DNA from: Solibacteraceae bacterium | Lineage (GTDB): Bacteria > Acidobacteriota > Terriglobia > Bryobacterales > Bryobacteraceae | NCBI GenBank assembly: GCA_026984795.1 | Contig: JALSRK010000073.1 | Location: 62,001-126,000 of the forward strand | Length of the DNA stretch: 64,000 nt | Direction of reading: 5' to 3' | In this document: piece by piece, positions 14,105-30,435 of the stretch | How the letters are laid out: each line of letters begins with the position of its first letter | Numbering within the stretch: position 1 is the stretch's first letter | Notes under the pieces: generated by a model | What the model was told of the DNA's origin: nothing | The model's input: only the letters and a program-made list of their open reading frames with translations | Databases searched by the model: none | Position numbers and translations under genes: made by a program

Positions 14105-16525
14105 CTACCGGGCCGGCCGATGCCGGTAGCGGAGCGCGAAGACCGACGCCCGGCCCTCGTCGCCCCTAGCGCCCAGCACCAGCAGCACGATTCCGCGCTG
14201 GGGGTCGAAGACCATCGCCCGGTTCTGAGCGGCCCGCCGGTGCAACTCCTCGCCCTCGCGGATCGGAATCTCGACCCTCCGCCAGGTGTTGTCCGCCGCC
14301 GTGTAGGCCCACATGGGCGGCAGCCCGCCCCGGCGCGCGCGTCCGTAGAGCAAGAGCACGTCCTCGCCGGGGATGTAGACGGATTCCCGGGTACAGACCG
14401 GCGGCGCTCCGCCGCCGGCGACCTTCGGGTGCAAGTTCATCCACCGGCGCTTTACCCAGTCGAAGGCCCAGAGTTCGTCGCGGCGGGCGCCGCCGCCGTG
14501 TAAGAGCAGCCGTTCGCGCTTCGAGTCCCAGGCCAGGCTCGTCATCTCGTAGAGGTTCTGGGGCCAGGGGCCGCCGCGGTCCATGCGTTCCCAGTCCGAA
14601 CCGCGGAGCAGCCAGACGCTCGTCTCCTGGTGCGGATCGTCCGGCCGCCAGGGAAGCAGGTAGCCGGCGTCGTTCAACCGGCTGCGCCAGTCCAGGCGGA
14701 CGCCCACGACGCCGTGCGGAGTAGTGACGACCGTGTCCACGCCTTCCGGCGCCGGGCCGATGAGCGTCCACTCCCGCGTTTGGGGATCCCAGCTCCAGGT
14801 GACGAACTTCTTGTAAGAAGATGGCGGCCGGACCAGGGCGTCAGGAGCTACGGAGCGGCTCTCGGGCCAATCGCGGGACCACTCGGGCTCGTAGCCGGTG
14901 GTCAGCCGCATCCGCACGACGTTGATCAGCCGGTCACCTACCGGATCGTAAGCGTAGGCTTTGCGGCCGTGGGTCGCCCAAGGCCCGCCCCGGAAGGTCA
15001 CCCCGGCGAGCCGGACGCCTTTGTCCCACGTCCGGCCGGGGAATTCGGGCTCCGGGCCGCCCACCCAGGTGTGCCCAGCCACGTCGTAGACGTCCACGTC
15101 GTTGCCGCCGTAGCCGCAGTGGCCGCCGCCCCAGTAGAGAATCTGCTCCCGCCGCGTGTCGAAGGTGGCGCTGCCCCAGGTGCGGGTGATCGCGGCGCGT
15201 CCCGGATCGGCCAGCAGAACCCATTCGTTCTCCGGCAAATTCTCGAGGCGGGCTTGCTGGACCGCCCGGCGCCGGGGATCGGGCCGCGTACCGGCCGCTT
15301 CCTTCGGGGGCCGTTTCGGCATCGCCTCCTGCGGGCGGACCGGGGCCGCCGCGTCCACCAGGCCTTCCATCTCGATCCGGTATCCGTAGGTGGTGCGCAC
15401 CGGGTAGAGGGTGTTGCAGCTCGACCGGTCGTCCGGCCGGCGCGTGTTCGCCACCAGGACGATCAGCCGCCGCTCGGGGGCGATGTCGGCGCTGATGTAG
15501 AAGCCGGTGGGCACGCGCCCGTTCAGCTTCCGCCACCGGTCCTCGCCGGCGTCGTAGGCCCACATGTCGGTCAGGTCCCGGCGGTTGTAGCCCCCGCCGA
15601 CGATCACCCAGCCGGTCTCGGGATCCCACACGGTGAAATGTCCGGCCCGGGCTTCGGGGCTTCCCGGCGCCTGCGACTTGCGCCAGCGGCGCGTCTTCAG
15701 GTCGAAGAGCCAGGTATCGGCCAGGTAGCGGCTCTGGCCGTCGCCGCCGAAAAGCACCAGCACGCCGTGGCGGCGGTCGCATACCAGCCGCGTCTGCATC
15801 CGCGGCGGCGGTTCCACATCGAGAGACAACCGGCGCCATTCCCCCTCGGCCGGGCGGAACACCCAAGTTCCGGTGTAACCGCGGACCTTTCCGTCCGGCC
15901 CCCGTTCGGCCACGTGCCCGCCGCCGAAGAGAATCAACTCGTCAGCGACCGGATCCCAGACCAGCGAGCCGCCCAGCACCGGGGGCGGCGACTGCCGCGG
16001 CCGCAGGTCGCGCCAGCGGCGCCGCCGGACGTCGTAGGCCGCCGTCAGCCCGCCGGTGAAATAGTAGAGGGAGTGGTCCGTTTCGCGGTAGGCCACCTGG
16101 TCGAAGACGATGTTCAGGTCCGGCCGGGGCGCGGCGGGTTCCTCGTCGGTGGGGCTGCGCATGACCGTCCGTTCGCTGCCCGAGGTGATCCCGGCGTAGG
16201 TCCGGGGGACGTAGGCGAGCGGCAGCCGCCGGCTCCAGAGCCGCTCCCAGGCCGGCGGGAACTGGTTCTCCCACCGGCGGGTGTCCGGGTCGAAGGCCAC
16301 CATGTCGTACTCGGGTACACGGATGAGCGGGTGCTCCTGGAGCAGCTCGGGGTCGTCGTTCATGAAGCCCCAAAGCAGGAAAGAATCCACCGCCGGGGCG
16401 TAGCGGATGGCCGAACCCCGCCTGGCGCCCGAAGGATCCTTGGCCAGCTCGACCCACCGGTTCGGCGGCAGATCGGCCGCGACCAGGCAAGTGGCGGACA
16501 ACAGGGCCGCGAGCAGTGCGCGCAT
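14105..16525 (-). CDS. Secreted Kelch-repeat (galactose-oxidase-like propeller) protein
   Basis: 806 residues. A signal peptide (MRALLAALLSATCLVA) is followed by many Kelch units of the type GGSLVWDPVADELILFGGG and DTWLFDLKTRRW, spread over residues about 40-370 and 430-800. This suggests two propeller domains joined by a basic linker (about 385-425, RPQEAMPKRPPKEAAG). I see no haem, Cys-Tyr cofactor or other catalytic signature. It begins four nucleotides after the downstream GH20 gene, so it belongs to the ROK-GH20-GH20 operon and may bind or process the same glycan. It may be related to Kelch-type sugar mutarotases, but it is about twice their length. Confidence 0.75.
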   Translation of the reverse strand: MRALLAALLSATCLVAADLPPNRWVELAKDPSGARRGSAIRYAPAVDSFLLWGFMNDDPELLQEHPLIRVPEYDMVAFDPDTRRWENQFPPAWERLWSRRLPLAYVPRTYAGITSGSERTVMRSPTDEEPAAPRPDLNIVFDQVAYRETDHSLYYFTGGLTAAYDVRRRRWRDLRPRQSPPPVLGGSLVWDPVADELILFGGGHVAERGPDGKVRGYTGTWVFRPAEGEWRRLSLDVEPPPRMQTRLVCDRRHGVLVLFGGDGQSRYLADTWLFDLKTRRWRKSQAPGSPEARAGHFTVWDPETGWVIVGGGYNRRDLTDMWAYDAGEDRWRKLNGRVPTGFYISADIAPERRLIVLVANTRRPDDRSSCNTLYPVRTTYGYRIEMEGLVDAAAPVRPQEAMPKRPPKEAAGTRPDPRRRAVQQARLENLPENEWVLLADPGRAAITRTWGSATFDTRREQILYWGGGHCGYGGNDVDVYDVAGHTWVGGPEPEFPGRTWDKGVRLAGVTFRGGPWATHGRKAYAYDPVGDRLINVVRMRLTTGYEPEWSRDWPESRSVAPDALVRPPSSYKKFVTWSWDPQTREWTLIGPAPEGVDTVVTTPHGVVGVRLDWRSRLNDAGYLLPWRPDDPHQETSVWLLRGSDWERMDRGGPWPQNLYEMTSLAWDSKRERLLLHGGGARRDELWAFDWVKRRWMNLHPKVAGGGAPPVCTRESVYIPGEDVLLLYGRARRGGLPPMWAYTAADNTWRRVEIPIREGEELHRRAAQNRAMVFDPQRGIVLLVLGARGDEGRASVFALRYRHRPAR

Positions 16526-16529
16526 CGGC

Positions 16530-18836
16530 CTACTCTTCGAGCCGCGGCTCAGCCAACCCCTTCACCGGCACGCCGTGCGCTTTGGCGTAGGAGCGGGTGA
16601 TCCCGGCCAGCTTTTCGAGCCAGCCTTCGAGGCCGATGCTGCGTTCGGGCATCATCATGAAGCTCAGGTCCGGCGTGCGGTCCGCCCAATGGTCCTTTGT
16701 GTCGTCGAGCTTGTGGAAGAACTTCCGGCCGCCCACCGAGCGCCCCTTCGGGTAGCGGCTCTTCTCGTAGACCGCCTTCAGTTTGGAGAAGACCCGTTCG
16801 CCGTCTTCGCGCAGGCGCTGGACGCGGTTGTAAGCCGCCACCAGATGCCCCACCGCCTGGGCGGGTTTGTTCGCAGCCGCCGCGTCCCGGGCGCGGAGGA
16901 GCGATTGCTCGGCCCCGGCCAACCCGGTAAGCAGGTCCCACTTGTGCCCCATGAACTCGGCCAGGGCGGTGAAGACTTCCAGGTTGTACCGGTTGCGGTC
17001 CGCGCGGCCCAGGTTCTCGTGCAAGGCCGCCAGCAGTTGGCGGCTCTCGATGGCCCGTTCTTTGGCCGTGTCCAGGTATTTCTCATATTTCGACGCGAAG
17101 CCGGGCTTGAATCTCAGATCCGGCAGCTCGGGCAGCGGCGGGGGCTCGAGGGTCAAGTCGTAGCGCCGGGTGCCGATGCCTTTGCCCCGGGAGTTGCCGT
17201 AACCCGGCCCCCGCACGCGGGAGGTGACACGATCCCAGGTGGATCGCCAGGCCCGCGCCTGCCGCTGCATCCGGCGGTATACTTCCGCCATCCCGGCAAC
17301 GCGCGGCCCGTAGTAGGTCTCGAAGAACTCGGCGGCGTGTTGGGCCACCGAAACCGTCCCGGGGTTCCAGCCCCACTGGGCGACCGCCGACCAGCCCAGC
17401 CAGAAGGTCTCGTTGTGCAAACCCGAGTCGTCCCAAGCGGCGCCGAAGACGCCGATCGGGTTGCCCTTCCAGTGGCGGCCATGGGCGATTTTCTCGTAGG
17501 CTGCCTCCAAGCGGCCTCTCGTGAGGCCGCTCTCGCTCTCCAGGCTCAGATGGTTCGGAAACAAGTACTCGCTTCCTTGCATCGAGACATAAGCGAGCTG
17601 GCGCATCCCCAGCTTGTTTTCCGGCTCCAGGTATTCCTCCTCGCCGATGACGCCGTCGATCAGGTCCGGCGGCAGCATGTGGACATGCTGGGGCAGCACC
17701 GGGTACTCGACCCAGGCCAGCGGGCGCCGTCCCCGCTTGGCGAGGAAGTCCCGCGCCTTGCGCACGAACTCGACCCACTTCAGGCTGCGGTTCACTTCGT
17801 TGTACGGCTCTTTGCAACGCTTGTCGATGCCGGCGTAGTAGACTTCGTCGGTGGAGACGTAGAAGTAGTTCACCCCTTTGGTGGCGCGGATCACGTCGTC
17901 GTACATCGAGAAGATCAGGTCGTAGGTGCGGGGGTCGCACAGCGTGGCCTCGTAATTGTTGCCGTCGGCGCGCAGCTCGGCGAACTCCGGGTGCTTGAGT
18001 ACGTAGGCCAGGTGGGCGGGCGCCTGGACGTCCGGCACGATCTGGATGAACCGTTCCAGCCCGTAATCGACGAGCTCCTGTAACTGCTCGGTGGTGAAAG
18101 CTCCCGGAGCGCCGATCACCGGGTGGGAGGGATACTCGAACTTGTCCTCCAGCTCGAAGGCGATCATGTTGACCTTGAAGCGCGCCGACCAGTCGAGGTA
18201 GCGCTTCAGCGTCTCGATGCGGTCCTGATGGTGCTTGGTATCCCAGTGCAGGAACCGCAACTGGAGCGCCGGCCAATCTTCGATCACCGCTTCCGGCAGC
18301 ACCAGGCGCCCGGCCGCGTCGCGCTTCAGCAACTGAAGCAGCGTCTGGACCCCGTAGAAGAGGCCCGCCTCGGCGTTGCCGGTGATCTCGATCCGCCGGG
18401 GCGTGATCTCGAGCCGGTAGGCCTGGCGCTCGATGCCGGGCTCCTTGCCCGTAGCCACTGTCCCCTTGCGGACCGCCAGCTTGACGACTTTGCCGCCGGA
18501 GCCGCGCCTGAGCTCGAGCTTGTGGAACTCCGCGAGGTCCGCTACCAGCGACCGGTAGGCCATCGTCTCGGGATCGCCGTCCACGACCCAATCGCTTCCG
18601 AAGACGACGTCGCCGCCCCGGAGCTCCACCTTCTGCGGCTGGGGGATCACCGAGTAGCCCCGCTGCCGGAGCTCGGTCACGCCGCCGTTGGCCAAACTTG
18701 CGAAAAGCAGAAGCAATACCAGAGTCATAAGCACCGCCATCACCAGGCCGAATCGGAGCCAGCGGCCGCCGGGTGCCACCCGCAGCCGCCTGAACCCCGT
18801 CCGAATTCTCTGCCGGCCCGTTTTTCCGCTCGTCAT
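16530..18836 (-). CDS. Glycoside hydrolase family 20 (beta-N-acetylhexosaminidase-like), membrane-anchored
   Basis: 768 residues from the ATG at 18836, which overlaps the stop of the upstream paralogue (ATGA). A basic N-terminus and a hydrophobic helix (about 28-50, FGLVMAVLMTLVLLLLFASL) suggest an uncleaved anchor or a long signal peptide. A GH20b-like beta domain (about 55-165, YSVIPQPQKVEL) leads into the TIM barrel. The catalytic Asp-Glu pair is D330-E331 in YVSTDEVYYAG, where classical members have GGDE. The C-terminal 200 residues are helical, ending with KSRYPKGRSVGGRKFFHKL, which the paralogue shares. It probably releases terminal N-acetylhexosamine from a polymer or glycoconjugate. 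Substrate not proven. Confidence 0.8.
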   Translation of the reverse strand: MTSGKTGRQRIRTGFRRLRVAPGGRWLRFGLVMAVLMTLVLLLLFASLANGGVTELRQRGYSVIPQPQKVELRGGDVVFGSDWVVDGDPETMAYRSLVADLAEFHKLELRRGSGGKVVKLAVRKGTVATGKEPGIERQAYRLEITPRRIEITGNAEAGLFYGVQTLLQLLKRDAAGRLVLPEAVIEDWPALQLRFLHWDTKHHQDRIETLKRYLDWSARFKVNMIAFELEDKFEYPSHPVIGAPGAFTTEQLQELVDYGLERFIQIVPDVQAPAHLAYVLKHPEFAELRADGNNYEATLCDPRTYDLIFSMYDDVIRATKGVNYFYVSTDEVYYAGIDKRCKEPYNEVNRSLKWVEFVRKARDFLAKRGRRPLAWVEYPVLPQHVHMLPPDLIDGVIGEEEYLEPENKLGMRQLAYVSMQGSEYLFPNHLSLESESGLTRGRLEAAYEKIAHGRHWKGNPIGVFGAAWDDSGLHNETFWLGWSAVAQWGWNPGTVSVAQHAAEFFETYYGPRVAGMAEVYRRMQRQARAWRSTWDRVTSRVRGPGYGNSRGKGIGTRRYDLTLEPPPLPELPDLRFKPGFASKYEKYLDTAKERAIESRQLLAALHENLGRADRNRYNLEVFTALAEFMGHKWDLLTGLAGAEQSLLRARDAAAANKPAQAVGHLVAAYNRVQRLREDGERVFSKLKAVYEKSRYPKGRSVGGRKFFHKLDDTKDHWADRTPDLSFMMMPERSIGLEGWLEKLAGITRSYAKAHGVPVKGLAEPRLEE

Positions 18837-21049
18837 TGCTCCAACCCGTAGCTCTTTGCGTAACCTTCGATAAACTCTGCCAGCTTCCGGTTCCACGGCT
18901 CGAGCCCAATCAGATCGAAAGGTTCGAGCATGTAGTCGAGCCCGGGGCGCCGGTCCGCCCGGTGGTCTTTGAGGTCGTCGAGAACATGAAGGAAATGCCG
19001 GCCGCCGACGCTGCGTCCCTTCCGGTAGCGGCTCTTCTCCCAAACCCGCACGAGGCTCTCCCACATGCGTCCGCGTTTCGCCAGGTTGCCGGCGACGACC
19101 GCGTGGGCCTGTTTCAACAGAGCCAGAACGTCCCGGTGGCGATCTTCCCGTTGGGCTCGAGCGGCCTGAAGCATCAGTTCTTCGGCTCGCTGGAGGTCCT
19201 GAAGCGTTTCGACGAAGTGTTTTTCGAACCGGGCGATCGAGAGCAGCACCTCGATGTTGTAGCGGTTGCGACTGACGGCCGAGAGCTTTCCTTCGAGGGC
19301 GTGAATCGCGGCGTCGAGCCGGCGGTTGATCCGGGGGGCCCTGGCCAGGGGCCCGGCGTAGAGCCGCCGGAAACGGTCCTCGACGATCAGGCCCTCGTCG
19401 TAGCCGAAGGGCAAGGCCGGCGGCTCCAGCTTCAGGTCGATCCGTACGGTGCCCCGCCCCTTGCCGGCGTAACTGCCGTAGGAAGGCTTCAGCCGGGTAG
19501 CCGGCACGCGGTCCCAGGTGTTCTCGTAGAAGCGGGCGGCTTCCATCAGGGTCCGGTAGATCTCGACCATGTCCTGGTTGCCCGGCCCGTAGAAGACGTC
19601 CATGAAATCGGCGACGCTCTGCTCCACCGGAGGCGTTTGCGGGGTCCAGCCGTACTGGGTGACCGTGGCCCAGCCCAGCCAGAAGGTCTCGCAGTGCAGG
19701 CCGGAATCGTCCCAGGCGGCCGCGTAAGTGCCGATGACGTCGGCGCCCCTCTCGATCGTCGCCGCCACGCTTCGCGCCGGCTCTTCTAACCGGCCGGTGA
19801 TGGGCCGCCCGCGATAGAGGAAATCGGAAGAGAAGTAGTTCGGGAACAGCAGCTCGGAACCTTGCTGAGAACTGTAGACGAGACTGCGGACGCCTGCCTG
19901 CTTCAGGCCCTCGATCCACTCCCGGCTGGCGCCCGGCCCGATGACGCCGTTGATCAGGCCCCGCGGCAACAACTCCAGGTGCTTTGTCAATACCGGGTAC
20001 TCGACCCAGCACAGCATTTTCCGGTGGCGCTCCTGAAGCCACCGGAACATGCGGTTGACGTAGTCCACCCACGTCAGGCTGCGGTTCTCAGGGTTGTAAG
20101 GCCGCCGCGCCCGGCACCCTTTCGAGATCCCGGCGTAGTAGACCTCGTCGGTGGAAACGTGGAAGTATTCGACGCCCGGAGTGGCCTCGATCATGTCCTG
20201 GTACATGTCCTCGATCAGGCGCATCGCCTCTTCGTTGCACATCGAGATCTGGTAGTTCGAGCCGTCGGCGCGGAGGTGGGCGAACTCCTCGTGCTTGAGG
20301 ACGTAAGCCATGTGGGCAGGCGACTGGATCTGGGGCACGAGCTGGATGAAGCGCTCGCGGGCGTAGGCGGTGAGCTCCTGCATCTGGGCCTTCGTATAGG
20401 CTCCGGGAGCGCCGATGATGGGATGCCGCGGGTATTCGTACTTGTCTTCCATTTCGAAGCCGATGGCGTTTACCTTGAAGAAGGCCGCCCAGTCGATGTA
20501 ACGCTTCAGCGTCTCGATGCGGTCCTGGTGGTGCTTCGTGTCCCAATGAATGAAGCGGAGCGGCAGGGCCGGCCAGTCGGTAATCACGCCAGCGGGCAGC
20601 TTCCATGCGCCGGCGCCGTCGGGCTTCAAGAGCTGGAGCAGGCTCTGGACGCCGTAGAAGAGGCCGGGGCCGGCGTTCGCGGAGATCTCGATGCGCTCCG
20701 GGCGGATCTCGATCCGGTAGGCCTGGCGGGCCAGCTCGGGCCCCGCCGGTTCCGCCACCGTCCCGGGCTCGATTCGCAACACGATGCGGCCCGCGCCGCC
20801 GCCGTCGAAGACGAGCCCGTGCAGCTCGCGGGCGCCGTCGAACAAGCGCCGAGTCGCAATATGATCGTCACCGGCTTGGGAAACGACGCTCCAGGAACGG
20901 TCCACCCTCACGTCGCCGCCGGCCAGCTCCACTTTCTGCGGCGCGGGGATCAAACTATAGCCGGCGCTGCGCAGGTCTGTGGAGAAACCAGGCCGGGGAA
21001 GGGCAAGGGCGGCCCAGATGAGGAAGCCGGCGAAGAAGCTGCGAATCAT
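18833..21049 (-). CDS. Glycoside hydrolase family 20 (beta-N-acetylhexosaminidase-like)
   Basis: 738 residues with a cleavable signal peptide (MIRSFFAGFLIWAALALPRPGFS). It is paralogous to the next gene over the whole length: both have the segments HWDTKHHQDRIETLKRY, SDxGLHxETFWLGW-like and KSRYRKGRSVGGRHFLHVL. The Asp-Glu pair is D301-E302 in HVSTDEVYYAG. A GH20b-like beta domain at about 28-130 precedes the barrel, and a long helical C-terminal domain follows it. The lack of a membrane anchor suggests that this copy is free in the periplasm or outside the cell while its partner is anchored. It is the first enzyme gene after the ROK regulator, with a 43-nt gap. Confidence 0.8.
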   Translation of the reverse strand: MIRSFFAGFLIWAALALPRPGFSTDLRSAGYSLIPAPQKVELAGGDVRVDRSWSVVSQAGDDHIATRRLFDGARELHGLVFDGGGAGRIVLRIEPGTVAEPAGPELARQAYRIEIRPERIEISANAGPGLFYGVQSLLQLLKPDGAGAWKLPAGVITDWPALPLRFIHWDTKHHQDRIETLKRYIDWAAFFKVNAIGFEMEDKYEYPRHPIIGAPGAYTKAQMQELTAYARERFIQLVPQIQSPAHMAYVLKHEEFAHLRADGSNYQISMCNEEAMRLIEDMYQDMIEATPGVEYFHVSTDEVYYAGISKGCRARRPYNPENRSLTWVDYVNRMFRWLQERHRKMLCWVEYPVLTKHLELLPRGLINGVIGPGASREWIEGLKQAGVRSLVYSSQQGSELLFPNYFSSDFLYRGRPITGRLEEPARSVAATIERGADVIGTYAAAWDDSGLHCETFWLGWATVTQYGWTPQTPPVEQSVADFMDVFYGPGNQDMVEIYRTLMEAARFYENTWDRVPATRLKPSYGSYAGKGRGTVRIDLKLEPPALPFGYDEGLIVEDRFRRLYAGPLARAPRINRRLDAAIHALEGKLSAVSRNRYNIEVLLSIARFEKHFVETLQDLQRAEELMLQAARAQREDRHRDVLALLKQAHAVVAGNLAKRGRMWESLVRVWEKSRYRKGRSVGGRHFLHVLDDLKDHRADRRPGLDYMLEPFDLIGLEPWNRKLAEFIEGYAKSYGLEQ

Positions 21050-21092
21050 CGTCCCCGCAAGTGGTGATTTTGCGCGTCTCTTGGCCCGGCGC

Positions 21093-22334
21093 TCAATCCG
21101 CAGCTCCTTCTTCCGGACGCGGAGCCAGAGCCGCTCCGGAGCGCTCGGCGAACCTTCCTTCGTTGAACAAAGGCTGGAACGGCAAAGCCGCAGCTCCTGT
21201 AATCGCCGATTGCCCGCGCAAGGCCGAAGGCCGGACCATCAGGTTCCGGAAATTGAGGAACTCCCGGCCGTCGGCGAACTGATCGAGGATCACCGGCGAG
21301 ACGATCGACCAGGCGTCGAACATCGTGCCGTCGAGGATTACGGCGTCGGGATCCAGAAACCATATGACGTTGGCGATGCCGATGCCCAGATAGCGCGCGC
21401 TGCGGGTCACCGCGTCGACAGCCGCTTTGTCGCCGGCCAGGGCCCGGTGGGCGATCTGCCGCACACAACTGGAAGACTCCTCCCATGGGAGTCGCCGGAG
21501 GCCGTTCGAGGCCCGGAAACTGGCGCAGGTCGCCTGGTCGGAGGCCAGTTGTTCCACCGATCCCGGCCGGTCGTGCCGCAACGGGCTCCCCGTATCGGCG
21601 ATCACCATTTGTCCGAACTCGCCGGCGGCCTTGTGCTGGCCGTAGAACAGCTCCCCGTCGATCACGATGCTGCAGCCGACGCCTTCGTCCACCTTGACGA
21701 AGAGCAGGCAGTGGGCGTCGTGGACGTCGGACATGCCATAGTGGTACTCGGCATAGGCGGCGGCGCGGACGTTGTTCTCGACCCAGACGGGAACGCCGAG
21801 CTGTTCCTCCAAGTGCGCCCGGACGGGGATCTTGGTCCAGATCTCCTGGTTGCCGCGTTCCACCACACCGGTGTCGGGATTCACCAGGCCGCGGGCGCTG
21901 ACGCCGAGCCCCACCAGCCGGATGTCCGGGCGCTGCTCCCGAATCCCCCGGATCCAGGCGGCGACGCGGTTCAGGGCCTCCAGCGGCTGCTCCGGCGTCG
22001 GGAACGAATCAGTGGCTTCCAGCCGGCCGCTGAGCGTGCCCAGGGCGACGAAAGTCTCCTGGTTGTGGATGTCCGCGGCGGCGGAGTAGTAATAGCCGTC
22101 GTCGAGGCGCAGGTGAGCCGGAGGGCGCCCGCCGGTGGAAGGGGCCGCGCCTACTTCGGCCACCAGGCGCTCCTGAAGAAGCCCGCTGATGATGCGCGAC
22201 ACGGAAGCTTCCGAGAGACTGGCGCGTTCGGCGATCTCCAGGCGGGAGAGCCGGTGGTGCCGGCGCAACAGACGGAGCGCAAGGGCCCGGTTATTGTTCG
22301 TAGATAAGGCCTTTCGGCCCGACGGCGGCGGCAT
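21093..22334 (-). CDS. ROK-family transcriptional regulator lacking the zinc ligands
   Basis: 413 residues. An N-terminal winged helix-turn-helix (about 15-65, RLSRLEIAERASLSEASVSRII) is followed by a ROK sugar-binding/ATPase-like domain (about 80-390, with GLGVSARGLVNPDTGVV and WVENNVRAAAYAE). In this family the motif GHxxxxxxxxxCxCGxxxC binds zinc. Here the four positions are Q242, L252, H254 and S259, so the site is lost. By analogy with NagC and Mlc it should repress sugar genes and be released by a sugar or sugar phosphate. It heads the GH20-GH20-Kelch operon and diverges from a TonB-dependent receptor gene, so both are likely targets. Confidence 0.88.
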   Translation of the reverse strand: MPPPSGRKALSTNNNRALALRLLRRHHRLSRLEIAERASLSEASVSRIISGLLQERLVAEVGAAPSTGGRPPAHLRLDDGYYYSAAADIHNQETFVALGTLSGRLEATDSFPTPEQPLEALNRVAAWIRGIREQRPDIRLVGLGVSARGLVNPDTGVVERGNQEIWTKIPVRAHLEEQLGVPVWVENNVRAAAYAEYHYGMSDVHDAHCLLFVKVDEGVGCSIVIDGELFYGQHKAAGEFGQMVIADTGSPLRHDRPGSVEQLASDQATCASFRASNGLRRLPWEESSSCVRQIAHRALAGDKAAVDAVTRSARYLGIGIANVIWFLDPDAVILDGTMFDAWSIVSPVILDQFADGREFLNFRNLMVRPSALRGQSAITGAAALPFQPLFNEGRFAERSGAALAPRPEEGAAD

Positions 22335-22429
22335 TGGACTCCCTCAATGATACTGTAATCGCTCGCGAAGGCTCAAGTAGTTTCTTGCTGGAGTGCAAGG
22401 AAGATTGCCAGCCGAGCGCGGCGAAGCAG

Positions 22430-22444
22430 TCGCACCCGGTGCGA
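22430..22444. promoter_or_regulatory. 15-bp inverted repeat in the ROK/TonB-receptor divergent region
   Basis: TCGCACC and GGTGCGA are exact reverse complements around one central C. The site lies seven bases upstream of a TTGACA hexamer (22451-22456) that points toward the TonB-dependent receptor gene. The position suits an operator for the ROK regulator or an activator site. Roughly four repeats of this quality are expected by chance in 64 kb, so this is a suggestion. Confidence 0.4.
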
Positions 22445-22450
22445 GATGTA

Positions 22451-22479
22451 TTGACATACGCGGAACTCTGCAGTAACTT
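22451..22479 (+). promoter_or_regulatory. Possible promoter of the TonB-dependent receptor gene
   Basis: The -35 hexamer TTGACA (22451-22456) is perfect, but the best -10 candidate at 17-base spacing, TAACTT (22474-22479), matches poorly. If real, the leader to the ATG at 22595 would be about 110 nt. An AAGGA ribosome site lies at 22579-22583. Confidence 0.3.
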
Positions 22480-22594
22480 AATTCCGAAAGATCTCCCATG
22501 CGCGCTTCGGCGGGTGTCTTTTCCAGTAGGCCTGCAAGAAAACTGTGAAGTGCGCACCTGCCTGAGCGCGCCGGGAACAAGGACAAAACCTACC

Positions 22595-25500
22595 ATGACG
22601 GGAACAGCTTTCCGAGGGGTGGGGATCGGCAGGTCGCTCCTCGGCGGTCTGGCGTTCCTCTCTTCCGTACTTCTAGTAGTTGCCTTATTCGTCTCGCCTG
22701 CGCTCGGGCAGACGGGCCTCGGCGTCGTCAAGGGCACGGTCCAGGACGCCACCGGGGCCGTCATTCCCGGCGCGCAAATCACGTTGACCAATTTGAAGAC
22801 CGGCGCTGTCCGCCGGTCGGAAACATCCGAACTCGGCATGTACGAGATCGGCGCCTTGCCGATCGGCGAATACCGGCTGACCGTAGAGGCGCCGGGATTC
22901 AGCAAATACGAAGGCACCTTCACCCTGGAAGCCGGCGCCACCGTCGTTATCGATCCGCAGTTGCAGGTCGGCACGGTGGACACCGTAGTGGAAGTGAGCG
23001 ACGTAGCGCCGATCATCTCCACCGTGGGCATGGAGGTCAGCGACGTCAAGGATGCCCTCCGCATCCAGCAGTTGCCCCTCAATGGCCGCTACATCACGAA
23101 CCTGTTTGCGTTGACGCCGGGCGTCGAAGGGGGCGGCAGCCCGAGGATCCACGGGATGAAAGTCGGGTCCGCCGAGATGACGCTCGACGGCATTTCGCTG
23201 GTGGACCGTTTCGGCGGCGGCATGGCCCGGGTGCAGCCCGGCCTGGACACGGTCCAGGAATTCCGCATCGAGACGGCCGGGTCGAGTGCGAAGTACTCGC
23301 GGCCGGCCACCGTAGCGCTGGTGACCAAGAGCGGCACCAACGAGCTCCACGGAGACGTCTTCTGGACCCACCGCAACAACTTCGGCGGCCTCCGGGCGCG
23401 CCGGCGTGAGGATCGGGGCGCGACGCCGCAGTACATCCGCAACGAGTTCGGCGTCACCGCCGGCGGCCCCATCATCAAGAACAAGACCTTCTGGTTCTTC
23501 TCTTATGAAGGCCAGCGCTTGCGCCAGGCGCGCTTCGCCCGGGCCGCGGTTCCTACTGACGCCATCTGGGGCGGCGACTTCAGCATGGCCATGACCCAGA
23601 ACCGCGAGTTCATCACCATCTACGACCCGTTCTCCACCGATGCCCAGGGCCTGCGCGTTCCGTTCCCCGGCAACCGGATTCCACCAGACCTGATTCACCC
23701 CTTCGCCGAGACGATGCGCAGCGTGACCGCCTCGCCGGCGGGGCCGAACGCCGGTGAGAACCCGTACCTCTACGACAACTTCGAGACCTACTACCCTGAC
23801 CAGACCGACATCAACACTTGGACGGCCAAGGGCGACCAGATCTTCTCCGAGAAAGACAACCTCTCCGGCCGCTTCACGCTGTCCAAACAGCCGCGTAAGA
23901 CGTTCGGCGGGCGGTACGGCTACCCGCCGCCGGGAATCAGCAATGCCGGCGGCACCCGGCGGGCGGACTACAAGGTCTACAACGCCTATGTCCGCTGGAA
24001 TCACGTCTTCTCACCGACCCTGCTCAACGAGTTCCAGGCCTCCGGCCACCGGTCTCCCGCCAGTTATGGAACGCTGGCCGACGACACCAACTGGGCTGAC
24101 AAGCTCGGCTTGCCGAACCCGTTCGGCGTCACCGGCTGGCCGACGATCTGCATGGACAGCAACTTCCTCTACTGGGGTTGCTGGGATGCGGACAACCGGC
24201 ATGACCAGCACCTGACGGCCTACGAACTCGACGACAACGTGACCTGGGTCCGCGGCCGGCACTCCATCAAGTTCGGTTTCAAGGGCCGTCTGGAACACAA
24301 CAACATTCGCGAGTTGCAGCAGGCCCAGGGCTCGCATAGCTTCGGTTCGGACTGGACGGCGCTGTTCGACCCGGTGGCCGAGCAAGCGGTCTCCTTCACC
24401 GGCGACGGCATGGCCAGCCTCCTGCTCGGCTTGCCCACTTATCTGTCGAACCAGTACAACCGCGGCTACTTCTATTTCCGGCAGATGGAGTTCGGCCTCT
24501 ATTTCCACGACAGCTTTCGGGTGAATCCGCGACTCACTCTGGAGCTCGGCCTGCGGTGGGACAAGTGGACCGTCTACAAAGAGAAGTACGACCGGCTGGT
24601 GAACATCGACATGGAGGCTCACCTGGCCGATCCCACGCTCATGCAGGTGGTCACCCCCCGGGACACCAGGATGGAGGACATCCCGGGCATTCCTCCGTCG
24701 GTGCTCGAGTCGTGGAAAGCCCGGGGACTGACCTGGACCACGGCGCGCGAGGCCGGCCTCCCCGACAGCTTGTTGCCGGCTGACAACAACAACTTCGCGC
24801 CGCGGCTGGGCGCCGCTTTCCGTCTGACCGACAACTGGGTGATCCGCGGAGGGTACGGCATCTACTACTGGACCATGCCCCTGTCGCAGATCCTGCAGAG
24901 CGCCAGGAGCAATCCGCCGCTCAACCTCCGGTTCACCAATGTCATCGCCGACAAACAAGGCACGTTCTACAACTACGCCTTGAGCCAGCCCCCGAACCCC
25001 AACGAGGACTTCGTCGGGGTGGCCGACGTAGACATCACCGGCGTGGTCGGCATCAGCAAGAGCGCCCGTTCGATCATGCCGTGGGACTACCGCAACTGGA
25101 GCGACAACATGATGCAGGAGTGGAACTTCACGCTCGAGCGCCAGTTGATGCGCAACACCGCCCTGCGGCTGAGCTACATCGGCAACCACGGCAGCAACCT
25201 CGAGCAGCGCTGGCGCTGGAACGATCCTGAGTCGGAGTGGAACTACCAGGCCAGGACCGGGCTGAAAGCTCCCACGAACCGGGATCTGCGCCGGATCAAC
25301 CCGAACTTCCGCAACGGCTGCTGCCAGGCGCCGATCAAGCACAACGGCTATTCGAACGCCCACTCTTTGCAAGCCGAGGTCGAACGGCGCTATTCCGACG
25401 GACTGGCCTTCCAGGTCTTCTACACGTTCACCCGTTCGCTGACCACCAACGACACGGGAGGCTTCTCCTACGGACCCAGCAGCATCAACGCGACCGGCGG

Positions 25501-26260
25501 CCGCCAGATGGCCGTCCCCGAGCCTCGTGTCATCCTCGGCGAACCCAACATGACGCCCGAGCAGCGCTTGCGGCTCGCCTACTACAACTCGACCAACGTG
25601 CCGGCCCACCGCGTCCGGTGGAACGGCATCTACACGCTGCCGTTCGGCCGCGGCAAGAAGTATTTCAACAATGCTTCACGCCGTCTGGACCTGCTCGTCG
25701 GCGGCTGGGAGCTGGCCTTCATCGGTTCGTGGCGGAGCGGGAACTGGCTGAGCGTGAGCAGCAGCCGGTACCTGTTCGGCGACCCCACGCTCAGCGCCGA
25801 CGAACGGCTCGTGATGACCATCTTCGGTAAGCGGCAGCGGCTGTGGTTCCGCGGCGACTTCGATCCTACGTTCGCTACCGACGTGGATCAAGCCAAGCTG
25901 CAGCAACTCGTGCCGCTGGACCGGTCCAAGCGCGTGCTGCGCCCGGTGGGATCGAAGTTCAACAACCGGATCCCGCAGGTGCTGGCCGACGGAACCGTGC
26001 GCGAAACCAGGATCACCGACAATGTCAACTGGAACGCGCGCAACTTCTTCCGCGGCCCGGGATTCTGGGGCATGGACTTCTCGGTGTTCAAGTGGTTCAC
26101 CATTACCGAGCGTGTCCGCACGCGATTTACCGCCGACTTCTTCAACGTCTTCAATCACCCGAACGACGTAAACCCGAACTCGACGACCGGACTTCAGGAC
26201 CTGAGCCGGTCGGCCAATGAGCCCCGGATCATCCAGTTCTCCCTCCGGGTCGAGTGGTAG
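22595..26260 (+). CDS. Oar-like TonB-dependent receptor
   Basis: 1221 residues from the ATG at 22595, chosen because a signal peptide follows (RSLLGGLAFLSSVLLVVALFVSPALGQ) and an AAGGA site precedes; the frame is open 87 codons further upstream without protein-like sequence. A carboxypeptidase-regulatory domain (about 42-125, VKGTVQDATGAVIPGAQITL) is followed by a plug domain with LPLNGRYITNLFALTPGV and then a large barrel ending in FSLRVEW. This architecture is the abundant Acidobacteria receptor type. It imports an oligosaccharide or other ligand across the outer membrane using TonB. Its gene diverges from the ROK-GH20 operon, which suggests an amino-sugar ligand. No SusD-like gene is nearby. 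Confidence 0.9.
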   Translation: MTGTAFRGVGIGRSLLGGLAFLSSVLLVVALFVSPALGQTGLGVVKGTVQDATGAVIPGAQITLTNLKTGAVRRSETSELGMYEIGALPIGEYRLTVEAPGFSKYEGTFTLEAGATVVIDPQLQVGTVDTVVEVSDVAPIISTVGMEVSDVKDALRIQQLPLNGRYITNLFALTPGVEGGGSPRIHGMKVGSAEMTLDGISLVDRFGGGMARVQPGLDTVQEFRIETAGSSAKYSRPATVALVTKSGTNELHGDVFWTHRNNFGGLRARRREDRGATPQYIRNEFGVTAGGPIIKNKTFWFFSYEGQRLRQARFARAAVPTDAIWGGDFSMAMTQNREFITIYDPFSTDAQGLRVPFPGNRIPPDLIHPFAETMRSVTASPAGPNAGENPYLYDNFETYYPDQTDINTWTAKGDQIFSEKDNLSGRFTLSKQPRKTFGGRYGYPPPGISNAGGTRRADYKVYNAYVRWNHVFSPTLLNEFQASGHRSPASYGTLADDTNWADKLGLPNPFGVTGWPTICMDSNFLYWGCWDADNRHDQHLTAYELDDNVTWVRGRHSIKFGFKGRLEHNNIRELQQAQGSHSFGSDWTALFDPVAEQAVSFTGDGMASLLLGLPTYLSNQYNRGYFYFRQMEFGLYFHDSFRVNPRLTLELGLRWDKWTVYKEKYDRLVNIDMEAHLADPTLMQVVTPRDTRMEDIPGIPPSVLESWKARGLTWTTAREAGLPDSLLPADNNNFAPRLGAAFRLTDNWVIRGGYGIYYWTMPLSQILQSARSNPPLNLRFTNVIADKQGTFYNYALSQPPNPNEDFVGVADVDITGVVGISKSARSIMPWDYRNWSDNMMQEWNFTLERQLMRNTALRLSYIGNHGSNLEQRWRWNDPESEWNYQARTGLKAPTNRDLRRINPNFRNGCCQAPIKHNGYSNAHSLQAEVERRYSDGLAFQVFYTFTRSLTTNDTGGFSYGPSSINATGGRQMAVPEPRVILGEPNMTPEQRLRLAYYNSTNVPAHRVRWNGIYTLPFGRGKKYFNNASRRLDLLVGGWELAFIGSWRSGNWLSVSSSRYLFGDPTLSADERLVMTIFGKRQRLWFRGDFDPTFATDVDQAKLQQLVPLDRSKRVLRPVGSKFNNRIPQVLADGTVRETRITDNVNWNARNFFRGPGFWGMDFSVFKWFTITERVRTRFTADFFNVFNHPNDVNPNSTTGLQDLSRSANEPRIIQFSLRVEW

Positions 26261-26284
26261 TGGATCCTTTGCAACTCCCGCCAG

Positions 26285-26325
26285 GCTACCGGCCTTGCAA
26301 CGTCAAGGCCGGTAGCTCTTTCTTG
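26285..26325 (+). terminator. Rho-independent terminator after the TonB-dependent receptor
   Basis: A perfect 13-bp stem (GCTACCGGCCTTG at 26285-26297 and CAAGGCCGGTAGC at 26304-26316) closes a six-base loop and is followed by TCTTTCTTG. It starts 24 bases after the receptor stop codon. A stem this long is not expected by chance. It separates the receptor from the sulfatase-fold gene. Confidence 0.85.
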
Positions 26326-26451
26326 AGGAGTTGCGCGGAGCGGCTTTTCCAAAGGGGGCTGGGGCGCCGCTCGAAGGCGCCGAGGCAATCCCGCTCAACG
26401 CCCGCCGGGAGCCGCCCCGGGGGGGCGCCCGATTTGGTTGGTTCGGCGGGT

Positions 26452-28752
26452 GTGTATTCTCGCGCTGCCGCCGTTCTGGCGCTCGCGGCACTGGCCGTGT
26501 CTCCCGCATGCCGTTTCGAGAGAAAGCCGGCCACGACGGCTGCGCCGTTCCACCTCTACCGGTTCGATGACCAACTCGCCTCGGCGGCCACGATCCAAGC
26601 CTCCGGCTCGGGGTCGTCGCTGCGGATGGCCGAGCCGATCGTCTGGGACTTTTCAGAACCGAAGACGGACTGGATCCTTCTCCGAGGACGTCTGGGCTTC
26701 CGCCACGGGGAGCTGGCCGTGCAGGGCCGCGGAAGCACGCCGGTGATCCAGTCGCCGCCGCAGGCCGAGATCGACTGGAGCCGTTACCAGGCCGTCGAGA
26801 TCCGAATGATCACCGAAGCGGGCAGGGAAATCAAGATCAAGATCGGGGACCGGGAGTACAAGCAGAAGTTGGCTCCGCCGCTCCAGTACCGCGTGTATCG
26901 GTTCAACCTCGATATCACCGAACACACCCATGCCTGGCCTCTGGCCATCATGCCGACCGATGACGTGATCGCCACGGTGGCTATCGACTATGTCCGGCTG
27001 GTCCCGAGAATGACTCCGTTCCCCAAGGCCGTCGGGTGCATGAGGGTCGGCAAGGGCGAGGAATACCGGAACACGATATACACTCACGCCCCTTCGTCGC
27101 TCACCTATGAGGTCCGGATTCCGTCCGGCGCCCGGCTTCACTTCGGCATCGGCGTCGCTGATCCGGAGCCGGTAACCTTCCGGGTTCTCGCCGGCGCCGA
27201 CGAGGTGTATTCCAGGACGTTGAAGGATCCGAACACCTGGGTGGACGCCGCCGTGGACCTTACGCCATACGAGGGCACGAGCACAAAGATCGTCTTCCGG
27301 ACCGAGAGCCCTCGGGAAGGAGCGATCGGATTCTGGGCCAATCCATTGTTGGCCCCGGCGCGCCCAAGGGGCCGGTTCAACATTCTGATGTATACGGTTT
27401 GCACGTTGCGGCCGGACCATACGAGCCTCTACGGTTATGAGCGGGACACGACTCCGTTCCTGAAAAGGCTCGGAGCCTCGGGCGTGGTCTTCGACGACTG
27501 CCAGGCGCAGGCCACCTGGACCAAAGCCTCGGTCGCCTCACTGCTCACGTCGCTGTATTCCTACACCCATGGAATCCGGCGGGACACCGGCGCCATCCCC
27601 GCCGGCGCCGCTACGATGGCCGAGCAGTTCCGGAAGGCCGGCTACGTCACCGCGAGTATCACCGGCAATCCTTTCGCCGGGCGGCTCACCGGACTGGACC
27701 GGGGCTTCGACTATCAGATGGAGTATCCGGCCGTGGAGCGGGAGCTCAGCGCGTCCGACCGGGCCACCGATTCAGCGGGTCTGAACCGGGTCGCCTTCCG
27801 CTGGCTGGACAAGCACCGCCAGACGCCGTTCTTCCTTTTCTTGCTTTCGACCGATCCGCACGCTCCCTACCGGCCCCCGGCCGCGTTTGAGAGGCTCTTT
27901 GCCAATCCGGCCGAGACGGCCGAGTTCGACAGGGACTACGCCCGGTTGAAAAAGTACCGCGGATACGGGGGAGGCGCGATGATCAGCCCCGCCGAATGCC
28001 GGGCCAACGGCGTCGATCCGGAGACCTTCCGGCGCCGGGCGATCGAACGCTACGACGCAGAGATCGCCCACAACGACCACAGCATCGAACTTCTCTTCAA
28101 CCGGCTCGAGCAGCTGAAACTGCTCGAGAACACGCTGGTTGTCGTCCTCTCCGATCACGGCGAGGAATTCTGGGAGCACGGCTGGAGCGCCCACGAGCAT
28201 TCCCTGTACGACGAGCTGACCCACGTGGTTCTTCTGTTCTGGAATCCGCGTCTGCTCGGGCCGGCGCGCCGGATCCCGGATCCGGTTCAACTGATCGACG
28301 TTATGCCCACGGTGGCGGCGCTCCTCTCGGCGCCGTTGCAGGGCGTGGTTCAAGGGGAGAATCTGCTCCCCCTCCTCCGGGGGGAACCGTTCCACCGGCG
28401 GGCGCCGGTGATGTCGTCGCGCTTCGCCCATCCGAATTTCCGGCCTGATGGAGTTCCGGAGAACCGCACCGGCACCTTCGCCCGCATCGGCGCGGATTGG
28501 AAGTTCCTCTATCGAGACCAGGCGCGGCGGGCCGGTCTGAAGCGGATCGAGCTCTACGACCACCGCAACGACCGCCAAGACCGCCGGGACGTGGCCTCCG
28601 AACACCCGGAATTGACCCGGAAGCTCCTTGACGAGCTCCTCCGGTGGATCGATGATCAAAAGCAGGTAAGGAAAGCTCTCGGAGCGCCCGGAAAAAGAAA
28701 GTTGGACCCTCGCACGCTGAAGCGGCTGCGGACGCTCGGCTACTTGAAATGA
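26452..28752 (+). CDS. Sulfatase-fold (alkaline phosphatase superfamily) lipoprotein with altered active site
   Basis: About 766 residues from a GTG at 26452, chosen because a lipoprotein-like signal follows at once (AAAVLALAALAVSPAC); the frame is open to 26254 but crosses the terminator. The first 300 residues are beta-rich with no clear family. The sulfatase fold runs from about 310 to 740: CTLRPDHTSLYGYERDTTPF, SVASLLTSLYSYTHG, SDHGEEFWEHG (D568, H569). The usual metal-ligand Asp of DTLR is Cys (C317), and the nucleophile position that is Cys or Ser in sulfatases is Thr (T357), with the following Pro and Arg also gone. A formylglycine sulfatase is therefore unlikely; a phosphotransferase or phosphodiesterase fits better. 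Substrate unknown. Confidence 0.75.
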   Translation: MYSRAAAVLALAALAVSPACRFERKPATTAAPFHLYRFDDQLASAATIQASGSGSSLRMAEPIVWDFSEPKTDWILLRGRLGFRHGELAVQGRGSTPVIQSPPQAEIDWSRYQAVEIRMITEAGREIKIKIGDREYKQKLAPPLQYRVYRFNLDITEHTHAWPLAIMPTDDVIATVAIDYVRLVPRMTPFPKAVGCMRVGKGEEYRNTIYTHAPSSLTYEVRIPSGARLHFGIGVADPEPVTFRVLAGADEVYSRTLKDPNTWVDAAVDLTPYEGTSTKIVFRTESPREGAIGFWANPLLAPARPRGRFNILMYTVCTLRPDHTSLYGYERDTTPFLKRLGASGVVFDDCQAQATWTKASVASLLTSLYSYTHGIRRDTGAIPAGAATMAEQFRKAGYVTASITGNPFAGRLTGLDRGFDYQMEYPAVERELSASDRATDSAGLNRVAFRWLDKHRQTPFFLFLLSTDPHAPYRPPAAFERLFANPAETAEFDRDYARLKKYRGYGGGAMISPAECRANGVDPETFRRRAIERYDAEIAHNDHSIELLFNRLEQLKLLENTLVVVLSDHGEEFWEHGWSAHEHSLYDELTHVVLLFWNPRLLGPARRIPDPVQLIDVMPTVAALLSAPLQGVVQGENLLPLLRGEPFHRRAPVMSSRFAHPNFRPDGVPENRTGTFARIGADWKFLYRDQARRAGLKRIELYDHRNDRQDRRDVASEHPELTRKLLDELLRWIDDQKQVRKALGAPGKRKLDPRTLKRLRTLGYLK

Positions 28753-28824
28753 GGAACGCACGCCGGGTTGGGGCGCCGCTCGTGGACCGGTTCTGGGAAG
28801 TCAGCTCAGCCGGGGGAAATCACC

Positions 28825-30435
28825 ATGAACACCGAACGTCACAGCACACGATCACGCAGTAGCCGTTTGCCGGAGGCGCAGCGGCGCGAGTTGGAGGCGC
28901 TGCGGGACTACATACGCCGGGAGTATCGCACCTTCGTCGGCTACCCTTGTCGCGGCGACCTCGACTACTCGGAACTCTATGACTTCTTCGCCTATCCGGT
29001 GAACAACGTCGGCGATCCCTTCGCCCCCAGCACTTACCGCCTGCACACCCGGGAGATCGAGCGCAAGGTGCTCGCCTGGTTCGCCGAGCTCAACCACATC
29101 GCCGACGGCGACTACTGGGGCTACGTGACCAACGGCGGCACCGAGGGCAATATCTACGGGCTGTTCCTGGCGCGCGAGATCCTGCCGGAAGGCATCGTCT
29201 ACTACTCCGAGGACACCCACTACAGCGTCGCCAAGAACCTGCGCGTGCTGCGGATGAAGCACATCATGATCAAGTCCCAGCCCAGCGGCGAGATCGACTA
29301 CGACGACCTGCGCCGCTCGCTGGAGATCCACCGCGACGCCCCGCCCATCATCTTCGCCAACATCGGCACCACGATGACCGAGGCCGTGGACGACGTCCAG
29401 AAGATCCGGGCCATGCTCCAAGAGATGGCCGTTCCGGAGCATTACATCCACTGCGACGCCGCCCTGAGCGGGATGACGCTCCCGTTCCAGGAAGGCGCGC
29501 CCGTCTTCGATTTCCGCGCCGGCATCGACAGCATCTCCATCAGCGGGCACAAGTTCATCGGCTCGCCGATTCCCTGCGGCATCGTGCTGGCCAAGAAGCG
29601 CTACGTGGAGCGGATCGCGCGTTCCATCGAATACGTCGGCACCCTCGACACGACCCTCACCGGTTCCCGCAACGCCGTCACGCCCCTTTTCCTTTGGTAC
29701 GCCATCCACACCCGGGGAGCCGAAGGGTTCCGCCGCGAGGTGGCCGAGTGCATCGAGAAGGCCGACTATGCCATCGGCAAGCTGGCCGAAATCGGCGTCG
29801 AGGCGTGGCGCAACCCCTTCGCCATCACCGTCGTTTTTCCGGCGCCGCCGCCTCCGGTGCTGGAGAAGTGGCAGATCGCCGTCAACCGGGGGCGGGCGCA
29901 TATCATCACGTTGCAATCGATCACTCGCGAACAGATCGACGAGCTCGCCGCCGACATCGCCGCCGCCATGGCCCGAGCTCCGGAGGTGCGCCCCGAGCGG
30001 CCGGCTCCACCTGTCCGCGGCGAGGGAGTCGTACCGGAAGCGAAACTGAGAGAGATCTTCATCGTCACGGCGAACCGTCCGGGCTTGGTGGCCGACATCT
30101 CGGAAGTCCTCGCCGCCCACGGCATCAACATCGAGTCCCTGGACGCCGAGGAAGTTCACGGCCTCGCCACCGTGGTCCTCACCGTGGACCGTTACGACGA
30201 GGCTCTGAAGTGTCTGCGCAACGCGGGCTTCGACGCCGTCTCTGAAGATGCGCTGGTGGTGAGGATCAAGGACGAGCCCGGTTCTTTGGCCCGGCTCTCC
30301 CGCCGCTTCAAAGATGCCGGCATCAATCTGCGCTGCCTGCGGATCCTGCGGCGGCACGAGGGGCTGGCCTGGATCGCCCTCTCCACGCCCCGCACCGCCG
30401 AAGCCAAGGCTTTGGTCGAGGACTGCTCCGTCTAG
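28825..30435 (+). CDS. PLP-dependent histidine-decarboxylase-like enzyme fused to two ACT domains
   Basis: 536 residues from the ATG at 28825 (MNTERHSTRS), preceded by CGGGGG. Residues about 15-395 form a group II PLP decarboxylase: GYPCRGDLDYSELYDFFAYP, NNVGDPF, TNGGTEGNIYGLFLAR, HCDAALSG and the PLP lysine K243 in SGHKFIGSP. After a proline-rich linker come two ACT domains (about 410-475 and 475-536), each with the typical start (FIVTANRPGLVADISEVLA; VRIKDEPGSLARLSRRF). Bacterial HDC is normally about 380 residues without ACT domains. The ACT pair probably binds an amino acid and controls activity. Serine is an alternative substrate, as in plant relatives. Confidence 0.85.
   Translation: MNTERHSTRSRSSRLPEAQRRELEALRDYIRREYRTFVGYPCRGDLDYSELYDFFAYPVNNVGDPFAPSTYRLHTREIERKVLAWFAELNHIADGDYWGYVTNGGTEGNIYGLFLAREILPEGIVYYSEDTHYSVAKNLRVLRMKHIMIKSQPSGEIDYDDLRRSLEIHRDAPPIIFANIGTTMTEAVDDVQKIRAMLQEMAVPEHYIHCDAALSGMTLPFQEGAPVFDFRAGIDSISISGHKFIGSPIPCGIVLAKKRYVERIARSIEYVGTLDTTLTGSRNAVTPLFLWYAIHTRGAEGFRREVAECIEKADYAIGKLAEIGVEAWRNPFAITVVFPAPPPPVLEKWQIAVNRGRAHIITLQSITREQIDELAADIAAAMARAPEVRPERPAPPVRGEGVVPEAKLREIFIVTANRPGLVADISEVLAAHGINIESLDAEEVHGLATVVLTVDRYDEALKCLRNAGFDAVSEDALVVRIKDEPGSLARLSRRFKDAGINLRCLRILRRHEGLAWIALSTPRTAEAKALVEDCSV

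Follow-up and report, generated by a model that had tools for sequence, protein, structure and literature searches.

How might an acidobacterium take up amino sugars through an outer-membrane receptor that has no SusD partner? The question is raised by one locus in the window, our term for the whole 64,000-nucleotide stretch analyzed here, which belongs to a 5.2-Mb genome (77 contigs) of a soil bacterium in the family Bryobacteraceae, phylum Acidobacteriota. A sequence-only reading had proposed that this locus cuts and imports an N-acetylhexosamine polymer.

Organization of the locus and its enzymes

The features discussed below are as follows (positions are those of the window).

14105-16525, minus strand: Kelch gene, encoding an 806-aa secreted double Kelch-repeat protein, probably accessory (Pfam Kelch families)
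16530-18836, minus strand: GH20A, predicted exo-beta-N-acetylhexosaminidase, GH20C/GcnA-like with a helical C-terminal domain (Pfam GH20b and GH20)
18833-21049, minus strand: GH20B, a diverged, secreted paralogue of GH20A (Pfam GH20b and GH20)
21093-22334, minus strand: ROK regulator (Pfam ROK)
22381-22402, no strand assigned: candidate operator between the ROK and receptor genes, an imperfect palindrome, TTTCTTGC-N6-GCAAGGAA
22451-22479, plus strand: possible receptor promoter, TTGACA-17-TAACTT, picked by eye
22595-26260, plus strand: Oar-like TonB-dependent receptor, 1221 aa (Pfam CarboxypepD_reg and OMP_b-brl_4)
26254-28752, plus strand: secreted sulfatase-superfamily protein (Pfam Sulfatase), possible GTG start at 26452
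26284-26317, plus strand: hairpin/terminator 3' of the receptor, 14-pair stem

The open reading frames bear out the minus-strand set that the sequence-only reading had described, with a 43-nt gap between the ROK gene and GH20B, a 4-nt overlap of GH20B and GH20A, and a 4-nt gap between GH20A and the Kelch gene, and Pfam agreed with each assigned family (Kelch, two GH20, ROK, and Oar-like receptor). The divergence of the regulator from the receptor gene was likewise confirmed; it leaves a 260-nt region (22335-22594) containing the palindrome and the TTGACA box at 22451, with the receptor frame open from 22334 and its best-read start at 22595. The strong terminator claimed after the receptor is present as the 14-pair hairpin, followed by CTTTCTT. 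No other terminator-like site occurs in 20900-26700, and since shuffled versions of this region gave a mean of 3.9 such sites under the same loose rule, the count itself is no evidence, although the stem is long. The gene beyond the terminator (26254-28752) is conserved and lay mostly outside the span first considered, 14105-26325. The reading frame directly after it, at 28768-30435, joins a pyridoxal-dependent decarboxylase-like domain to two stretches of ACT domain. The flanking genes scanned included neither a transporter nor a gene of sugar catabolism.

Both GH20 proteins, which are 50% identical, have GH20b and GH20 domains and the catalytic Asp-Glu pair of beta-N-acetylhexosaminidases (D330-E331 in GH20A), set in the motif STDE in both copies, whereas most GH20s have GGDE. 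An AlphaFold (AF2) model of GH20A, built from 37 family sequences, had a mean pLDDT of 91, and its best whole-model match in VIA-align was Streptococcus pneumoniae GH20C (Z 29.5, 534 of 610 residues). Structural alignments to GH20C and Streptococcus gordonii GcnA (Z 27.4-29.5 over 524-542 residues) included the helical C-terminal part, so the model has the overall GH20C/GcnA fold with helical domain III; nematode HEX-2 was also among the top matches (Z 28.9), and other GH20s scored at most 26.4. Judging from strand order and alignments, W375, Y416, and W468-x-D470 of GH20A correspond to W266, Y308, and W373-x-D375 of GH20C, whose roles are taken from PMC11308363; enzymes of the GH20C type accept GlcNAc as well as GalNAc (PMC11308363). 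Since the D-E pair and the W, Y, and W-x-D positions are in place, GH20A and GH20B are likely to be active enzymes, as far as sequence and model can tell.

Relatives that group with the window GH20s are nearer to GH20A than to GH20B, which lies on a long branch outside the 25-member clade holding GH20A and is without a one-to-one counterpart among the loci examined. We rejected a recent tandem duplication of the pair on the grounds that the 25 GH20A-type relatives all group to the exclusion of GH20B, the length of its branch notwithstanding, and we regard the second GH20 as accessory. In Acidobacteriaceae bacterium KBS 96 (L069/L195), a partly masked tandem array also contains several diverged GH20 genes and fragments. 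The claim that GH20A is an anchored copy appears doubtful, and we dropped it: hydrophobic helix 27-49 ends where a signal peptidase could plausibly cut, and in most relatives whose N terminus is complete an ordinary short signal peptide stands at this place.

Nine of 150 family genomes encode the Kelch protein, and every one of them carries the close GH20 type, itself present in 26 of the 150 (hypergeometric P = 2e-7 with the window's own genome left out and relatedness ignored). Since all nine have the GH20 and the two genes adjoin only in the window and in one other of the genomes searched (L042), the Kelch protein appears to be functionally associated with the GH20 as an accessory outside any fixed operon. 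Its AlphaFold model fits the two propellers that had been claimed, at moderate confidence only (pLDDT 72.7), with Kelch propellers matched over about half its length. A NanM/YjhT mutarotase was rejected, the NCBIfam matches being far under cutoff, and solved-structure searches with this moderate-confidence model gave no match to galactose oxidase.

The receptor and its partners in relatives

We searched 150 genomes of the same family with the GH20B, Kelch, receptor, and sulfatase-like proteins and mapped the genes around the matches. The most constant partner of the receptor, near-fixed, is the sulfatase-like protein. Relatives at least 51% identical to the window's were found at 19 places, and in all 17 that could be tested the gene adjoins a receptor of the window's kind, counting L215, where a second sulfatase-like gene lies between the two; in G129:C83 and G038:C527 the contig breaks off on the side expected to hold the receptor. 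A GH20 gene was nearby at 7 of the 19 places.

The formylglycine nucleophile position of this partner is Thr in the window and in all orthologues covering the site, and the window has T-K-A-S-V in place of the C/S-x-P/A-x-R motif. Moreover, a subgroup comprising the window, L087, L088, L089, and L112 has Cys for the first metal-binding Asp, which the other members keep. Because of this Thr, together with the Cys of the subgroup, we ruled out an ordinary formylglycine sulfatase. In phospho-transfer members of the sulfatase superfamily a Thr serves as nucleophile, so the protein may be a phosphatase or a phosphodiesterase or act in binding. Four of the five members of the Cys-for-Asp subgroup have an adjacent or nearby ROK gene.

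In the receptor tree, a well-supported branch (SH-aLRT 95) has GH20-linked receptors on one side and the window receptor on the other, among sulfatase-linked receptors. Its nearest relative is L086, from the same genome; L087-L089 are also close kin, and each of these four receptors has a sulfatase-like gene downstream. The window ROK shows a similar affinity, sharing 59-61% identity with its counterparts in receptor-sulfatase loci L087 and L088, 44-49% with those in ROK-receptor-GH20 loci, and ~29% with those in GH20-ROK-receptor loci. L086 (C34:9001-29000) is a second receptor-sulfatase pair whose receptor is 69% identical to the window's and whose sulfatase-like protein keeps the canonical Asp; no ROK or GH20 gene was found near it. 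The genome has 68 OMP_b-brl_4 matches, some of which are fragments of one gene.

These affinities would fit two independent neighboring systems, namely a ROK-receptor-sulfatase module for a substrate other than amino sugars (perhaps phosphorylated or sulfated) and a GH20-Kelch operon that shares the ROK strand. At L086-L090, the loci of the receptor's nearest kin, the sulfatase-like gene is present and no GH20 is nearby, and the most similar ROK genes (L087 and L088) belong to GH20-free loci. However, the receptor-sulfatase pair together with a GH20 recurs in L061, L063, L066, L098, and L215, and a sulfatase-like gene stands next to a GH20 in L216, which argues that the pairing of the modules is not mere accident; in addition, only 43 nt separate the ROK gene from GH20B on the same strand. 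We consider separate systems a minority possibility, if one to be taken seriously. Since the window receptor and ROK are closest to receptor-sulfatase loci, the simplest history is that the two modules came together.

The absence of SusD, as first claimed, holds genome-wide for the SusD_RagB family: a SusD_RagB search, which covers one SusD Pfam family and whose positive control worked, gave no match anywhere, and so none beside the receptor, where a SusC/SusD polysaccharide utilization locus (PUL) would have its SusD-family lipoprotein. It is conceivable, if rather doubtful, that in Bryobacteraceae SusD has given way to the secreted sulfatase-superfamily protein, which, at the surface and with altered catalytic residues, would capture or prepare glycans that are charged or contain amino sugars for an Oar-like receptor dedicated to them. 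If true, Acidobacteriota would have a distinct design of receptor and partner for importing glycans.

A GH20 relative was present in 58 of the 150 genomes. At 19 of 57 GH20 places (18 genomes; the 57 comprise two main GH20 types), a receptor sharing at least 49% identity with the window's was no more than 15 kb away, where 0.39 such places would be expected for independent positions in a 5.5-Mb genome, a figure that is a guide only, as related genomes are not independent. The comparison of gene order across relatives that had been suggested as a check thus revealed co-localization of receptor and GH20 far over chance, but the exact order is not conserved. The order ROK-receptor-GH20-AA_permease-M20 recurs in L039, L051, and L052 (L054 has it otherwise, but no M20 was found there), and the alternative GH20-ROK-receptor-permease-M20 occurs in L044, L047, L057, and L100. 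These genes often overlap, and several such loci include a DUF4091-like gene, so named by eye and with no Pfam match. The M20 proteins of GH20-linked relatives are ArgE/DapE-type deacylases. Tight GH20/receptor-AA_permease-M20 loci are thus found in Acidobacteriota at L039, L051, L052, L044, L047, L057, and elsewhere, and they suggest an amino-acid-linked amino-sugar substrate.

By extension, the window could hold the outer half of a system for amino sugars that bear amino acids (glycopeptides or fragments of peptidoglycan). In such a system GH20 would free the sugar, and the deacylase/peptidase and the amino-acid-type permease of relatives would do the rest. The tight overlap of the AA_permease and M20 genes in GH20-linked relatives speaks for such a system, but no permease, M20, or DUF4091-like gene was found at the window locus. 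Copies elsewhere in the genome were also considered and set aside as distant homologues only, the closest being 42% (permease) and 30% (M20) identical, and we judge this reading quite unlikely for the window. That the GH20s act in turnover of the cell's own envelope, where secreted enzymes could meet its peptidoglycan or glycans, is highly improbable, because they recur beside a receptor for uptake through the outer membrane and a sugar-type regulator and are patchily distributed (58 of 150 genomes).

Control region and proposed working

The nearest NCBIfam model to the ROK protein is NagC, at 155.5 bits against an equivalog cutoff of 650, which leaves it a member of the ROK family rather than an assigned NagC. 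The palindrome at 22381-22402 is the sole exact copy in the genome, and its inexact matches equal the count for a reversed-pattern control, making it a weak operator candidate. The TTGACA-17-TAACTT promoter candidate fell under the scan threshold; a TTGACA-like box is also found upstream of the paralogous L086 and of L087-L089. Control of both directions of the divergent region by the ROK protein is plausible.

On balance, we think it probable, though far from assured, that the window contains a locus of the CUT type (carbohydrate utilization loci with TonB-dependent receptors) that scavenges amino sugars without SusD, with import and regulation as follows. A ROK/Oar-like receptor/sulfatase-like module and a GH20 exo-N-acetylhexosaminidase operon, each separate elsewhere in Bryobacteraceae, would be joined here. 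The secreted GH20s would cut terminal beta-linked GlcNAc or GalNAc off outside glycans, a substrate suggested by sequence and model, and the receptor, by analogy with its family, would use TonB energy to bring the freed sugar, or else a short oligosaccharide, through the outer membrane. The pairing of the sulfatase-like protein with the receptor points to a role in modifying or holding the substrate there. From the 260-nt region, the NagC-like ROK may act as a repressor in both directions, with relief when it binds an amino sugar. Inner-membrane import and catabolism would be supplied from elsewhere in the genome, which has a NagA gene and whose nearest permease homologue is unlinked to the locus. 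We infer amino sugars as the substrate, as well as the modes of import and regulation and the roles of the sulfatase-like and Kelch proteins.

Several findings count against this scavenging locus: the window receptor lies outside the clade usually found with GH20, so that its halves may be accidental neighbors; a terminator separates the receptor from the sulfatase-like gene; the flanking genes scanned offer no transporter and no sugar catabolism; and the operator candidate is weak. The outline of an N-acetylhexosamine-polymer system holds, insofar as relatives of this receptor lie near GH20 genes far over chance and the window's genome has no SusD_RagB match; it is the placement of this particular receptor, in the sulfatase-linked clade, that fits it less well. 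Soils are rich in Acidobacteriota, whose genomes encode Oar-like receptors by the dozen, with unassigned cargo. Amino sugars offer a testable cargo for one receptor family, whose near-fixed partner could do the job of the Bacteroidota SusD.

Comparison with known systems

GH20A resembles the Streptococcus GH20C/GcnA enzymes in its fold, including the helical C-terminal domain, and in the D-E, W, Y, and W-x-D positions, but it is only 14% identical to them and has STDE rather than GGDE. Unlike them, it is predicted to be secreted from a Gram-negative cell and has a complete GH20b domain. The sulfatase-like protein shares the Sulfatase domain and the DHG metal motif with formylglycine sulfatases and phosphonate monoester hydrolases of the alkaline phosphatase superfamily, from which it differs by Thr for Cys/Ser and Cys for the first metal Asp.

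That the locus is built differently from SusC/SusD loci, as the sequence-only reading had it, is underlined by Bacteroidota and Chlorobiota, where PULs of Pseudozobellia, a Chlorobiota metagenome-assembled genome (MAG), and a Flammeovirgaceae MAG have this GH20 subtype behind SusC/SusD; the window has an Oar-like receptor in place of SusC, in a genome without a SusD_RagB match. Our paper searches found no description of this gene combination or of the recurrent ROK-receptor-GH20-permease-M20 locus.

The closest parallel is with the CUT loci of Xanthomonas campestris (PMC1790865), which likewise combine a receptor, degradative enzymes, and a sugar-related regulator with no SusD. The window has a TonB-dependent receptor beside carbohydrate-degrading enzymes and a sugar-type regulator (ROK, nearest to NagC). 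In contrast to the X. campestris loci, it lacks an inner-membrane sugar transporter among the flanking genes scanned (relatives have AA_permease), and it is at most a partial CUT locus under the definition of PMC1790865. It differs further in its Oar-like OMP_b-brl_4 receptor, its sulfatase-superfamily partner, and its phylum. The locus is thus a variant of the known SusD-less CUT kind with a distinctive receptor partner.
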